64,000 nucleotides of DNA from Bacteroidota bacterium. GTDB lineage: Bacteria > Bacteroidota > Bacteroidia > Chitinophagales > Chitinophagaceae. The position numbers and the translations under genes were made by a program. Position 1 is the first letter of the stretch; every line of letters begins with the position of its first letter. The notes beneath the pieces are model-generated. The model was not told where the DNA came from, made no database searches, and saw only the letters and a program-made list of their open reading frames with translations. The stretch spans positions 1-64,000 of the forward strand of contig JAUZOA010000010.1 in NCBI GenBank assembly GCA_030706685.1. The letters are read 5' to 3'. Of this stretch, positions 4,045-39,012 are shown in pieces.

Positions 4045-4203
4045 TGCCAATAGGTAATGGGTCAGTTTGAAATATGTCCACTGAGAACCGCAGAGATAAA
4101 GAGTGCCACAGAGAGACTATCATGAATCCTCTGAGATTCTCTGTTTCTCGGCGGTCCTCTGTGGCCCACATAAATATTGAAACTGACCCACTACCTGCCA
4201 ATG
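4045..4203. mobile_element. MITE-like palindromic element, family A (copy 1)
   Basis: A 143-bp element (4053-4195) has terminal inverted repeats GGTAATGGGTCAGTTT / GGTAGTGGGTCAGTTT (one mismatch). It is flanked by TGCCAATA and TGCCAATG, an 8-bp target duplication with 7 matches. The interior is a long imperfect palindrome of CCACAGAG/CTCTGTGG stutters centred near 4120. It has no coding capacity, so it would depend on a transposase encoded elsewhere. Confidence 0.7.
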
Positions 4204-4380: not shown

Positions 4381-6189
4381 TTATTTATCGTCAATCCCGT
4401 ATTGATAATTTAAAAAATCCAGTTCTATCCCCGCATTAGTCAGTGCTTTGACAAACTGATTCCTGCGGGTGGCGGCTATACCGGGCAACGGGCGATAATA
4501 CCTGATACCATCCCTTAAATTCTGATAAAAGGAGATATAGTATTTTTTTCTTTTTGAAAATTGACCAGCAAGCATGTCTGCTTCCAACTGCTCTTTGAGA
4601 TAATCAATATATAAATGCAGTTCAGCAATAAACATATGAGGTCTGTCAGAATTGGTAACAATATTCGTTCTCCCGTAAATATGATCGGTCATCGTTTGCA
4701 GCGAAACTACCCTGGAAAAATTAACAATATTCGGCCCCGGGCAAATAGTTACGGCACTAAGTGTTTTTATAAAAGTTTGTTTATAGTTAATTGCAGCGGC
4801 ATTACTCAGACCTACACATAAACATTCTTTGTCCAATACAGCATTTACCTGGTTGTTATATTCTTGCTCAGGCAAATTAAGCGATCGTAACTGCGCGATT
4901 TTTAATTTTTGATATTGGTGAGAAGCTGTACAAATCGGCTCTTTGGTGAATTCTGTATTGGAACCGAGGTGCTTTTCAGTACAAGGACTGCCGGGTTTCC
5001 CATTCCTGCGTCTTAGTAATTTTTCATTTTCAGCGCTGGTCCCTTTCAGGTAATGAAACCGGACATTCAATGGGGAATTGTGGCTCAGCACCATATCTTT
5101 TTCTTTTGCCGCGCACAATAGTTTCATAGTGGCTTCATCAACAGTAGTAGCCTCCGGTACAAGTAAAAAAGGTGTTCCCCATCCCGTACTTTCTATCTGG
5201 TAATGCCTGTGTAAAAATTCATCTTCTTCATGGGTACCAATACCTCCCTGTACAGAAAATATTATTTTAGGCGGGTAAATAAGCTGGGTGTTATTTTTTC
5301 TCTTTAGAGCAGCATTGTAGATTTCAAAAAGTATATCTGTAAGTTCCTGCCTGTTGGATTTGAATTCTTCCAGGAGAGGACCCATCAAATAGCCATCCGT
5401 TGCAAAAGCATGGCCCCCGCAATTCAAGCCGGATTCAATCCTGAACTCACTAACCCAGATAGCTTTCTTTGCCAGGTATTTTCCCTGGATTAATGCAGAA
5501 CGGTAATCGCTGACTTTTATGATTATTTTTTTTGTGAACTTTCCATCTTCATTTACATCAAACTCCCTGCAATTTTCAAGGTAATTATAGACCCTGGGAT
5601 TCATGCCCGCAGAAAAAACTACCGAAGAATTTTCCAGGGTACTTTTTGCATATCCTCTCAATGCAGCTACCGCATCAGAACCGTTTTCCAGTAATTCGCC
5701 GGTCTTATTATAGTTGTTCCGGTCTATTTTGGTCATAATATTTACGTCAATGCTGCCCGCGATTATTTGTGTCCGTAAATAAGTTTCTATCCTTTTCTTT
5801 TCCAATTCGCTGGTCATCTTCACCATTTTCCGGTAGCATTGTTTTAGCAGGCTATCATCGGGCAGCATCTCAAAATACTTTACTATTTCAGAACCCGCTT
5901 CAAAAGCAGCGTTCCTGAGTTTTTCAACCTGTGCTTGCACAATTGTATTGACAAGATCCAGGTAATCGGTAATCCTTTTGGCCCGGTAATCCTCTTCATG
6001 AGTGGAGATAGGATAATACTCTTTGTTGATAGCCGGGTAATAATGTTTTCTCATCATTTCTATTAACCTGTCTTCGACAATTGAAATAACGGATGAGATA
6101 CCAAAGCGGGCGACTTTTACCGGGCTATCTATGGTATAAGCCAAACCCATTACCGGGATATGGAATTTGTGTGGTGAAGAATAATGCAT
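4381..6189 (-). CDS. Uncharacterised 602-aa protein, possible TIM-barrel enzyme
   Basis: I do not recognise a named family with certainty. The N-terminus (IPVMGLAYTIDSPVKVARFGISSVISI) and the middle (LNCGGHAFATDGYLMGPLLEEF; IIFSVQGGIGTHEEDEFLHRHY; WGTPFLLVPEATTVDEAT) are reminiscent of FMN-dependent nitronate monooxygenase-like TIM barrels, with glycine-rich turns where phosphate would bind. The last third is cysteine-rich (SPCTEKH, EPICTASH, ECLCVGL, TICPGPN) and could bind a metal or Fe-S cluster. There is no signal peptide or membrane segment. It is divergent from the QueD-like/Rrf2 pair and shares their control region, which suggests a joint redox- or NO-responsive pathway. Function is unknown. 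Confidence 0.8.
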   Translation of the reverse strand: MHYSSPHKFHIPVMGLAYTIDSPVKVARFGISSVISIVEDRLIEMMRKHYYPAINKEYYPISTHEEDYRAKRITDYLDLVNTIVQAQVEKLRNAAFEAGSEIVKYFEMLPDDSLLKQCYRKMVKMTSELEKKRIETYLRTQIIAGSIDVNIMTKIDRNNYNKTGELLENGSDAVAALRGYAKSTLENSSVVFSAGMNPRVYNYLENCREFDVNEDGKFTKKIIIKVSDYRSALIQGKYLAKKAIWVSEFRIESGLNCGGHAFATDGYLMGPLLEEFKSNRQELTDILFEIYNAALKRKNNTQLIYPPKIIFSVQGGIGTHEEDEFLHRHYQIESTGWGTPFLLVPEATTVDEATMKLLCAAKEKDMVLSHNSPLNVRFHYLKGTSAENEKLLRRRNGKPGSPCTEKHLGSNTEFTKEPICTASHQYQKLKIAQLRSLNLPEQEYNNQVNAVLDKECLCVGLSNAAAINYKQTFIKTLSAVTICPGPNIVNFSRVVSLQTMTDHIYGRTNIVTNSDRPHMFIAELHLYIDYLKEQLEADMLAGQFSKRKKYYISFYQNLRDGIRYYRPLPGIAATRRNQFVKALTNAGIELDFLNYQYGIDDK

Positions 6190-6300
6190 GAAATCTTTTT
6201 AATATTAGAAAACCTGTGGAATGGGCTCAAAAAAAAGGAACACGGCAGGCAATTAACGGGATGCAGTCAATATCGACTTTAAATCCTTTCCGGGCAATTA

Positions 6301-6340
6301 TTGGCAAATATAACAATTAAGGATAGATTTGTCCTGAATT
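6301..6340 (+). promoter_or_regulatory. Bacteroidota promoter embedded in a palindromic operator (QueD-like/rrf2 operon)
   Basis: A -33 TTG (6301-6303) and a -7 TAGATTTG (6324-6331) are 20 bp apart and match the Bacteroidota consensus TAnnTTTG. The -7 box is exactly the 8-nt spacer of an inverted repeat AATTAAGGA / TCCTGAATT (6315-6340, 8 of 9 paired). A repressor bound there would cover the promoter. The Rrf2 protein encoded downstream is the obvious candidate. On the other strand TATATTTG at 6303-6310 could serve the divergent 602-aa gene. Confidence 0.7.
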
Positions 6341-6404
6341 ATTTAATAATCATCCTTTTGCCAAAAACGGAACAAATGCTTTGTTCCCTCATCTGACCTT
6401 AATT

Positions 6405-6848
6405 ATGTTACAACTCACAAAAATCTTTCATTTTGAGATGGCTCATGCCATTCATGGTTATTCCGGGGCTTGCAAGGATATACATGGCCATTCTTATGAA
6501 TTGCATGTAACAGTATCCTTAACTGAAGAATCGAAGGGGTATATTCCTCCTCCAGGCTTTATTTTTGATTTCAAGGAATTAAAAAGAGTGACGACAGAAA
6601 GTGTAATTAAACGGTTGGATCATAAACTCGTTCTGTCAAATGACTACCTGGCCAAACACCCTGGTATTGTCCGGCAAGAGAACCTGGTAAACTGGGAAGC
6701 TGAACCAACAGCAGAGAACCTGCTTATTTATATGCAACATACAATAGCAGAAGAATTGCCACCCTTCATTAAACTTGCCGGGTTAAAGTTATACGAGACA
6801 GCAGATTCCTACGCAAGTTGGATAGATACAGCTCCGGGCAAAGAATAA
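6405..6848 (+). CDS. 6-carboxytetrahydropterin synthase / PTPS-like protein (QueD family)
   Basis: From ATG 6405 this 147-aa protein has the complete PTPS/QueD signature. It shows F-x-x-A-H-A-x-H with C-K-D-I-H-G-H-S-Y (three zinc histidines and the catalytic cysteine), L-D-H-K-L-V-L, P-T-A-E-N-L and the late L-Y-E-T strand. Upstream TTG starts would shorten the leader and are less likely. The family converts dihydroneopterin triphosphate to a carboxy- or pyruvoyl-tetrahydropterin, in queuosine or biopterin synthesis. No queC/queE/queF lies nearby and it is followed 43 bp later by an Rrf2 regulator, so the gene may serve another pterin-dependent process. Confidence 0.88.
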   Translation: MLQLTKIFHFEMAHAIHGYSGACKDIHGHSYELHVTVSLTEESKGYIPPPGFIFDFKELKRVTTESVIKRLDHKLVLSNDYLAKHPGIVRQENLVNWEAEPTAENLLIYMQHTIAEELPPFIKLAGLKLYETADSYASWIDTAPGKE

Positions 6849-6891
6849 GTTTGCTGAAAGAATATATAATTTACTTTTCAAAATTACTTTA

Positions 6892-7335
6892 ATGTTTACT
6901 AAGGCAACCGAATATGCATTGAGAGCAATTATTTATATTGCTCAAAAGGGCACTGAAGAAAGAAAATGCAGTATTGGCGAAATAGCAAAGGCTATTGATT
7001 CGCCGCTGCCGTTTACGGCTAAAATATTGCAGGCGCTTCGTAAGGATAATAAAATTATCCGCTCGGTTAGCGGCCCCAATGGCGGATTTTATATGACTGA
7101 AAAATCCAGGAAACAGCCTCTTCGTGCAGTGCTCGAAGCGATGGGAGAGGACCAGGTGCTGGAAAAATGTGTATTGGGCCTGGTTAAATGTTCAGGAACA
7201 AAACCCTGTCCAATGCATTTTCAATACAAAACGATAAAGGAACAATTCATAAAACTATTTGAAACGAACACTATCCAATACCTCGCCGATGATATCAAAA
7301 ATGGCGATGTGTTTATCAGTAATAAGAATAAATAA
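6892..7335 (+). CDS. Rrf2-family regulator with Fe-S cysteine motif (NsrR/IscR-like)
   Basis: This 147-aa protein has a winged helix (KATEYALRAIIYIA; GEIAKAIDSPLPFTAKILQALRK; VSGPNGGFYM) typical of Rrf2. Three cysteines, C93-x6-C100-x5-C106, match the cluster-ligand spacing of IscR/NsrR/RsrR-type sensors, so it probably senses NO, iron-sulfur status or redox. It is cotranscribed with the QueD-like gene and is the likely ligand of the palindrome at 6315-6340. Which signal it reads cannot be told from sequence. Confidence 0.88.
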   Translation: MFTKATEYALRAIIYIAQKGTEERKCSIGEIAKAIDSPLPFTAKILQALRKDNKIIRSVSGPNGGFYMTEKSRKQPLRAVLEAMGEDQVLEKCVLGLVKCSGTKPCPMHFQYKTIKEQFIKLFETNTIQYLADDIKNGDVFISNKNK

Positions 7336-37975: not shown

Positions 37976-39012
37976 GATAGTTGCAGTTTTAAAATAACTT
38001 CATAGGTGGATTCATGCTCATGTATCGCCAGGTCATGTTTGCCCGGGTATACCAGTTCCATCCTTCGCCGGGCATTCATTACGCCGATGCCATTATGCTC
38101 TATGCCTTTGTTATTATTTATTCCTTTTGTGTTATAGGTTTGGAATAACAGCGAGCCGTTTTCAGCGCGGAAGGATATCTTTATCCTGTTTTCTTTTTTG
38201 TCATCGTTGCTCACATACTTAAAAGCATTTTCGATAAATGCGATGAAAAGCAAAGGAGCGATCATAAAGCTTCTTACATTTTCATCAATATCCAGTTCTA
38301 CGACCAGGTTATCCCCCTTTCGCACCTGCTGAAGAGCGACATAATTCCTGATATAATTCAGTTCTTTGTCAATGCTTACGCTGTCAGTATTGCATTCATA
38401 CAACTGGTAACGGAGCATATCCGAGAACGTGAGCAGCATATTTCTCGCCGAAGTATTCCCCTTATCTATATGACCGTAGATCGAATTGATCGAATTGAAC
38501 AGGAAATGAGGATTGAATTGCGCTTTCAGAAAATCAAGCTCAGCCTTTGAACGCTCCTTTTCAATTTTATGTACATATTTCTGGAACCTGGCCCTGTCCA
38601 TTACCAGTTTGGCCGCTACCAGGCAGATCACCCAGATAAAAATATTGATAAAGGAGTTATAAAATAATTCGGCAAACCCCGGCTGAGCTTTGCCAACCAG
38701 GAACCAGGTTTTGTTGAGATACATGGCCACCGGTACCCGCATCAGCGCGCCTGCCATGATGGCCGCAAGAGCCACTATGACAAAAGAGGTGATTTTCTTC
38801 TGGTATAAAAATTTTGGTATGGCGAACCATATATTAAAATAGTAATTCGCGGCAATAAAAAACAGGTAACAAAATTGGACAGTGGCTGTCCGGGAAAAAA
38901 CAACACTCCGTTTCTGGAACACCAGGATCCATAGAAGATACAAGGCGACCCATCCTGCTATATGTACCGGGGCTCGTTTAATCATTACCGGATCCTTTTC
39001 CAGGTTTTTCAT
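37972..39012 (-). CDS. LytS/YehU-type sensor histidine kinase
   Basis: This 346-aa protein has four hydrophobic N-terminal helices (20-135), a coiled linker (KYVHKIEKERSKAELDFLKAQ) and a His_kinase domain (FNPHFLFNSINSIYGHID with the phospho-His). The compact ATPase motifs are F-I-E-N-A-F-K-Y-V-S, then G-I-E-H-N-G-I-G-V-M-N-A-R-R-R. It is paired with the LytTR regulator by an ATGA overlap. The signal is unknown. Confidence 0.93.
   Translation of the reverse strand: MKNLEKDPVMIKRAPVHIAGWVALYLLWILVFQKRSVVFSRTATVQFCYLFFIAANYYFNIWFAIPKFLYQKKITSFVIVALAAIMAGALMRVPVAMYLNKTWFLVGKAQPGFAELFYNSFINIFIWVICLVAAKLVMDRARFQKYVHKIEKERSKAELDFLKAQFNPHFLFNSINSIYGHIDKGNTSARNMLLTFSDMLRYQLYECNTDSVSIDKELNYIRNYVALQQVRKGDNLVVELDIDENVRSFMIAPLLFIAFIENAFKYVSNDDKKENRIKISFRAENGSLLFQTYNTKGINNNKGIEHNGIGVMNARRRMELVYPGKHDLAIHEHESTYEVILKLQLS

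Follow-up and report, generated by a model that had tools for sequence, protein, structure and literature searches.

A remote FabX/NMO-superfamily protein of Bacteroidota in a conserved nitric oxide and denitrification neighbourhood, with a possible role in oxygen-independent fatty acid synthesis

The window analysed here is a stretch of 64,000 nucleotides from a Bacteroidota bacterium of the Chitinophagaceae (assembly GCA_030706685.1, contig JAUZOA010000010.1, positions 1 to 64,000), and the subject of this report is a protein of 602 amino acids (aa) encoded in it, hereafter F602, together with the two genes that face it. F602 lies on the minus strand, and the genes for a PTPS/QueD-fold protein and an Rrf2-family regulator run divergently from it on the plus strand. 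The three open reading frames (602 aa at 4381–6189, minus; 155 aa at 6381–6848, plus; 147 aa at 6892–7335, plus) lie exactly where the original prediction, made from the sequence alone, had placed them. F602 is a real gene and common in the phylum: matches were found in 142 of 395 sampled Bacteroidota genomes, the genome of the window included, nearly always as a single copy, and full-length matches share 43–73% identity, the window's own copy set aside. The match in genome G290 is partial and was dropped before genome co-occurrence was counted, leaving 141 F602 genomes, whose proteins comprise 137 distinct sequences over residues 21–500. No F602 relative was matched among the plasmid records searched. 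The features of the locus are as follows:

4381–6189, minus strand: F602, a 602-aa FabX/NMO-superfamily protein with a predicted flavin mononucleotide (FMN) TIM barrel, a helical insert and a Cys-bearing C-terminal part
5410–5421, minus strand: F602 codons 257–260 (C-G-G-H), with His260 aligned to the catalytic His182 of FabX and invariant in 141/141 proteins
5167–5250, minus strand: F602 codons 314–341 (QGGIGT...GWGTPF), matching in the alignment the GGI and GTRF segments by which FabX/NMO proteins bind FMN
4816–4983, minus strand: F602 codons 403–458, candidate iron-sulfur (Fe-S) ligands C403-x16-C420-x35-C456-x-C458, the four Cys present in 141/141 proteins
6319–6336, no strand: candidate Rrf2 operator AAGGATAGATTTGTCCTG in the divergent F602/PTPS intergenic region
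6369–6387, no strand: perfect palindrome with 8-bp arms, GGAACAAA-TGC-TTTGTTCC, upstream of PTPS and not conserved at related loci
6405–6848, plus strand: PTPS/QueD-fold gene, first ATG at 6405, with conserved H12, C21, H25, H27, D70-H71 and E129 (numbered by the first row of the alignment; adding 2 gives the count from the ATG)
6892–7335, plus strand: Rrf2-family regulator with C93-x6-C100-x5-C106

Sequence libraries give F602 no name. Searches of Pfam, NCBIfam and PADLOC returned nothing up to E 1, PHROG alone gave matches, neither of them significant (E 0.014 and 0.034), and F602 does not reach the cut-off of the NMO family PF03060, no Pfam match being listed up to E 10. A sequence search of the PDB did not recover Helicobacter pylori FabX, and its sole match, the RNA polymerase alpha subunit (E 0.029 and 0.01), is not believed. 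An AlphaFold model built from an alignment of 67 members, namely the window and 66 hand-chosen loci of the 80 closest relatives defined below, has a mean predicted local distance difference test score of 89.6 and a predicted template modelling score of 0.90. A Foldseek search with this model places H. pylori FabX first (E 1.3e-9) and PfaD with related enoyl reductases next. VIA-align superimposes the model on FabX with Z 21.1 over 334 residues and a root-mean-square deviation of 3.4, after which come FabK (Z 20.1 and less), PfaD and the NADH:quinone reductase PA1024; chains named as nitroalkane or nitronate enzymes fit at Z 19.0 or less, and matches to IMPDH and FAS were put down to the common barrel only. 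The TIM barrel suspected from glycine motifs is thus supported by predicted structure and fold match alike.

Profile comparison points the same way. A profile built from 45 FabX-like, NMO and FabK proteins (42 distinct) and searched in 2,546 proteins recovers all 141 F602 proteins at E ≤ 10, 117 of them at E ≤ 1e-3, and 140 outrank the first other protein (E 0.28), one ranking lower. The FMN contacts and catalytic base of FabX include N99, E175, G180, H182, G221, A242 and T243, as given in the available excerpt of its description (PMC8626469), and these align by eye with N150, E252, G258, H260, G316, G338 and T339 of F602; the first five are invariant in all 141 proteins, position 338 is G in 138 and A in 3, and position 339 is T in 91 and S in 50. 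The catalytic His and FMN-contact pattern of FabX is therefore found in F602, the correspondence to H. pylori numbering having been drawn by eye. At the position of FabX Q240, F602 has G336 instead, and the N-terminal GGMG loop of FabX aligns only in part. Six Cys (257, 403, 420, 456, 458 and 483) occur in every one of the 141 proteins. C403, C420 and C456-x-C458 fall where FabX carries its [4Fe-4S] ligands, and their C..C..CLC order recurs in two other NMO groups; judged by sequence, C403, C420, C456 and C458, possibly with C483, are candidate ligands of an Fe-S cluster. By fold and profile homology, F602 accordingly belongs, as a distant relative, to the broadly defined NMO/FabX superfamily, and its fold and residues are well supported. 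The earlier impression of a protein without a nameable family survives for Pfam and NCBIfam and gives way at the level of the superfamily, and the conserved Cys do not lie at the very end, where a Cys-rich end had been described.

The genomic setting was compared in two sets of loci. The near set comprises the window and the best 80 of 131 F602 relatives in named genomes; these are the closest relatives, many from Chitinophagaceae and unclassified metagenome-assembled genomes of Bacteroidota, and the 81 loci are not independent. The distant set comprises 60 loci, of which L132, L133 and L135 duplicate near loci, leaving 57 distinct. Neighbours were counted within about 8 kb of F602 where the contig allows, and each kind was named from a single representative; the names NnrS-like, NosL and NosF/Y were given by reading, and the NnrS-like and NosL representatives have no Pfam match. 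The near loci carry Rrf2 (37 of 81), PTPS (31), DGC (17), norB-like (16, raw), Ric (12), 4HBT (12), qNOR (10), norC (9) and NnrS-like genes (7). Under 520 aa are 14 of the 16 norB-like near loci; five 'NorB' rows above 520 aa are inside the raw counts, and near-set members of that length were left out as queries in a stricter search for nitric oxide (NO) and nitrous oxide (N2O) genes. The distant loci carry Rrf2 (13 of 60), Ric (9), NosZ (9), the O2-independent HemN type (5) and CtaA (5), and the Ric domain is their commonest immediate neighbour (7/91).

Any NO/N2O gene is present, in raw counts, at 30/81 near and 15/60 distant loci, and in the stricter search at 12/60 distant loci. Compared with 40 arbitrary stretches from the same genomes, one of which (L255) was kept although it fell on a nos locus by chance, NO/N2O families are enriched at the distinct distant loci (12/57 vs 1/40, p 0.013), as is Rrf2 (11/57 vs 1/40, p 0.013). 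The neighbourhood of F602 is thus a conserved NO/denitrification setting of norCB, qNOR, Ric, NnrS or nos genes, and this is well supported. Several further neighbours recur: a TrhP/UbiU-related U32 protein, which scores under both cut-offs; DGC-domain proteins (PF08859) at NO loci, for example at L032 5367–5759, some with the AAGGAYA-N4-TRTCCTT palindrome (see below) upstream; and, beside F602, pairs of tyrosine phenol-lyase/tryptophanase-family genes, as at L034 (5528–6934 and the next gene), L088 and L154. Within the window, a non-coding inverted repeat of 20 nt at 4052–4196, its arms 90% complementary across a 105-nt spacer, has a REP-like look.

The two partner genes belong to the families originally assigned to them. 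The PTPS protein matches PF01242 (E 4.6e-25; 88.4 over a cut-off of 22.4), its His/Cys site residues are kept in 9/9 aligned sequences, and it falls below the QueD equivalog cut-off of TIGR03367 (75.2 vs 89.25). The regulator matches PF02082 (E 1.2e-20) and exceeds the cut-off of TIGR00738 (76.3 over 73.3), which places it in the Rrf2 superfamily, and its Cys do stand at 93, 100 and 106; the C-x6-C-x5-C pattern is kept in 47/53 Rrf2 neighbours. It shares with NsrR/IscR-type regulators the family and the three Cys, but differs in Cys spacing and lies below both equivalog cut-offs, scoring 34.5 bits vs 182 for NsrR of NCBIfam. Of the 31 near loci with PTPS, 23 have it adjoining a same-strand Rrf2 gene and 11 have it adjoining norB, and the PTPS-Rrf2 pair has the look of the end of a nor operon. 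At L032 (138–2898), norC, norB, PTPS and Rrf2 form one strand-matched unit, with variants at other near loci. No queuosine genes were seen around F602, as had been remarked before, on inspection by eye of the window only, with no family-model or genome-wide search made.

An 18-bp palindrome, AAGGAYA-N4-TRTCCTT, recurs upstream of F602, PTPS, norC and qNOR at some loci. At up to two mismatches within 250 bp upstream in the near loci, the regions on which the motif was itself found and refined, it precedes F602 in 19/79 cases, PTPS in 15/31, U32 in 10/18, norC in 6/9, qNOR in 3/9, 4HBT in 4/12, DGC in 3/19, Rrf2 in 5/39, c2 in 2/31, Ric in 0/11 and norB in 0/16, per-gene counts that overlap where divergent pairs share one site; the background is 7/759 for other genes and 0–2/79 in 20 shuffles of the F602 upstream regions. 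Rrf2 is more frequent where the site precedes F602 (14/19 vs 23/62 loci without it), and the window holds two sites at up to one mismatch against 0.05 expected. The palindrome is perhaps an Rrf2 operator. It is unlike the NsrR motif gATGyAT-N5-ATrCATc, as printed in the excerpt available of PMC1274295. The second site, with one mismatch at 38171–38188, lies inside a histidine-kinase-like gene and was taken as chance, and the perfect palindrome at 6369, the first operator candidate, was ruled out since it is not conserved in related loci. An FNR-like site, TATGAC-N4-GTCATA, is also enriched upstream of F602 (20/139 vs 29/1,398, on the same data in which it was found), at 15/79 near loci, many of them close relatives, and 5/60 distant ones; no such site occurs in the window even when one mismatch is allowed.

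Across the 395 genomes, the profile was drawn from lists transcribed by hand, NosZ was counted for strong matches only (roughly 300 bits, by eye), and the co-occurrence statistics ignore phylogeny. On these terms, F602 (141 genomes) and NosZ (129) occur together in 67, F602 is present in 27/37 qNOR genomes, and at least 90 of the 141 F602 genomes have NosZ, qNOR or a short NorB. When 83 genomes with a long FabX form are removed, the association weakens to p 0.05 with NosZ and stands at p 0.0004 with qNOR. The genome of the window contains nosZ in an apparent nos cluster, a NirK-like gene, a cbb3-like oxidase, six FA_desaturase matches and a FabK-like protein (314 bits vs an equivalog cut-off of 453), and a search of it found no qNOR, close NorB or FabX-type gene; a COX1 match considered as NorB proved, by its length of 709 aa (open frame 713) and its operon, to be a cbb3-like subunit. 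The window's trio resembles what is left of a nor locus from which norCB has probably been lost. If this is right, its survival without an NO reductase would favour a role in anoxia over NO detoxification alone.

FabX offers the closest known comparison. According to the excerpt available, it dehydrogenates decanoyl-ACP (acyl carrier protein) by means of FMN, His182 and its cluster, and passes the electrons to O2 (PMC8626469). H. pylori FabX (HP0773) resembles F602 in its TIM barrel, aligned FMN-contact residues, catalytic His and conserved Cys of the C-terminal region; it has about 363 aa against 602, F602 has extra helices, and identity is 16–18% over aligned residues. The gonococcal protein NGO1024 (UfaA) is presumed to belong to the same superfamily and is likened to F602 by description only: its expression rises when oxygen is lacking. 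Like aniA, it is induced under anaerobic conditions (excerpt of PMC3032703), and it is cited second-hand, in the part available of PMC11300592, as a FabX homologue essential for anaerobic unsaturated acyl synthesis whose acceptor is unknown. Closer to hand are long FabX-like NMO proteins of about 420 aa from two other Bacteroidota families and a 483-aa protein at L245, all with the GGH motif and the C..C..CLC order of F602; they differ from it in being shorter and recognised by Pfam NMO, and the long form was not found in F602 genomes. The L245 protein (493–1944), of the NMO family, contains the motif RRACLCNGL. The Cys motif shared by these three groups may mark more Fe-S flavoenzymes.

We propose, with a probability of roughly 0.4, that F602 is an FMN/Fe-S acyl-ACP dehydrogenase-isomerase for O2-independent synthesis of unsaturated fatty acids, since it has a FabX-like core, neighbours of O2-independent and NO-respiratory function, and desaturase-family genes in its genome. 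FMN would sit in the TIM barrel with His260 as the catalytic base, and C403, C420, C456 and C458, possibly with C483, would hold a cluster where FabK binds NAD(P)H. F602 would dehydrogenate and isomerise a medium-chain acyl-ACP, the presumed substrate, and its electrons would pass via the cluster to an acceptor that is presumably not O2, so that unsaturated fatty acids would be made where O2-dependent desaturases cannot work. In the lineage of the window, an Rrf2 repressor may bind AAGGAYA-N4-TRTCCTT and be relieved by NO, which would switch on F602 together with norCB/qNOR; at some other loci, an FNR-like site would stand in place of this palindrome.

A number of observations weigh against this proposal, and three of them keep the confidence at this level: lipid genes do not recur beside F602, FabK fits almost as well as FabX, and the Cys are spaced differently. 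No fatty-acid synthesis family recurs among the 91 immediate neighbours at distant loci (the unlisted families, 62/87, are all single), and the sole hint of acyl chemistry near F602 is the 4HBT thioesterase at 12/81 near loci. The Z scores of FabX and FabK are almost equal, about one unit apart (21.1 vs 20.1). The Cys spacing of F602 (C-x16-C-x35-C-x-C) is unlike that of C300, C304, C308 and C320 in FabX (C-x3-C-x3-C-x11-C); because this ligand spacing is absent, F602 is not classed as a FabX, and FabX-like working is a reading by analogy. When the profile search is reversed, F602 against FabX-like sequences, the best E is 0.21 and the best shuffle 0.99, which is not a clear separation, and HHalign matches the FabX-like alignment in a sensible register but weakly (probability 2.2%, E 0.022). 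FabX itself, in the excerpt available, requires O2 as its acceptor (PMC8626469). The palindrome counts are partly circular, because the upstream regions counted are those that yielded the motif, and the site is missing before most F602 genes, occurring at 1/60 distant loci. Nine of the 12 distant NO/N2O loci belong to one family (f24). Although F602 never shares a genome with a long or short FabX-type gene (0/88), this exclusion cannot be separated from lineage, since 83 of these 88 genomes lie in two families. Finally, 51/141 F602 genomes have no NosZ, qNOR or short NorB among the matches listed.

This last count bears equally on another explanation, that F602 is a flavo-iron-sulfur reductase or oxidase of NO stress, acting on an N-oxide-derived molecule such as a nitro compound or nitrosated metabolite alongside NO reductases and Ric. 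The recurrent neighbours, which are NO and Fe-S-repair genes instead of lipid genes, the palindrome common to F602 and nor genes, and the shared fold of nitronate monooxygenases all speak for it; however, FabX fits the fold better (Z 21.1) than nitroalkane or nitronate enzymes (19.0 or less), and the window's own genome was found to have neither qNOR nor a close NorB. This explanation is considered unlikely. Somewhat less probable again is an O2-independent stand-in for some other cofactor or lipid step, whether a FabK/PfaD-like enoyl reductase or a quinone- or haem-related enzyme. FabK (Z up to 20.1), PfaD and PA1024 do match the fold, and HemN, CtaA and the TrhP/UbiU-related U32 protein recur as neighbours, but the four-Cys region sits where FabX has its cluster domain instead of the NAD(P)H domain of FabK, and the genome already has its FabK-like protein of 314 bits.

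The pterin-linked redox system put forward in the original prediction, in which PTPS would supply a pterin used by F602, is now highly improbable. F602 and PTPS are divergent in the window with one candidate operator between them, and PTPS lies near F602 in 31/81 near loci; yet it is always on the opposite strand, often joined to norB or Rrf2, is absent from most F602 loci, and appears at 1/60 distant loci, a duplicate of a near one, and the superfamily of F602 uses FMN. A pterin system is not supported because PTPS-Rrf2 looks like a nor operon tail and because PTPS is absent beside distant F602 genes. In a literature search of partial coverage, no paper was found joining NO reductase with PTPS or QueD in Bacteroidetes, and none joining NO, tetrahydropterin, NsrR and Rrf2. 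What stands of the idea is the FMN-type barrel, the NO/anoxia neighbourhood and the conserved co-location with Rrf2. F602 did not turn out to belong to a family unrelated to pterin and FMN, its superfamily being FMN-related, and the gene cluster is conserved as an NO/denitrification neighbourhood, not as a pterin system.

In its broadest form, the dehydrogenase-isomerase proposal would make F602 the founder of a widespread family whose FabX-like flavin/Fe-S dehydrogenation, with a non-O2 acceptor, gives aerobic as well as denitrifying Bacteroidota unsaturated, and perhaps branched, fatty acids in anoxia, and would add an undescribed Rrf2 regulon, marked by AAGGAYA-N4-TRTCCTT, that couples this membrane switch to NO reductases and a dedicated pterin synthase; so extended, it is doubtful. 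More than one in three of the Bacteroidota genomes sampled carry the gene itself, and the family libraries used give it no name. If the dehydrogenase-isomerase proposal is true, it would explain how bacteria that have O2-dependent desaturases keep their membranes fluid while respiring N-oxides, provide a second system for the anaerobic FabX-type reaction in which the electron acceptor could be sought, and offer a candidate operator from which NO control in Bacteroidota could be read.

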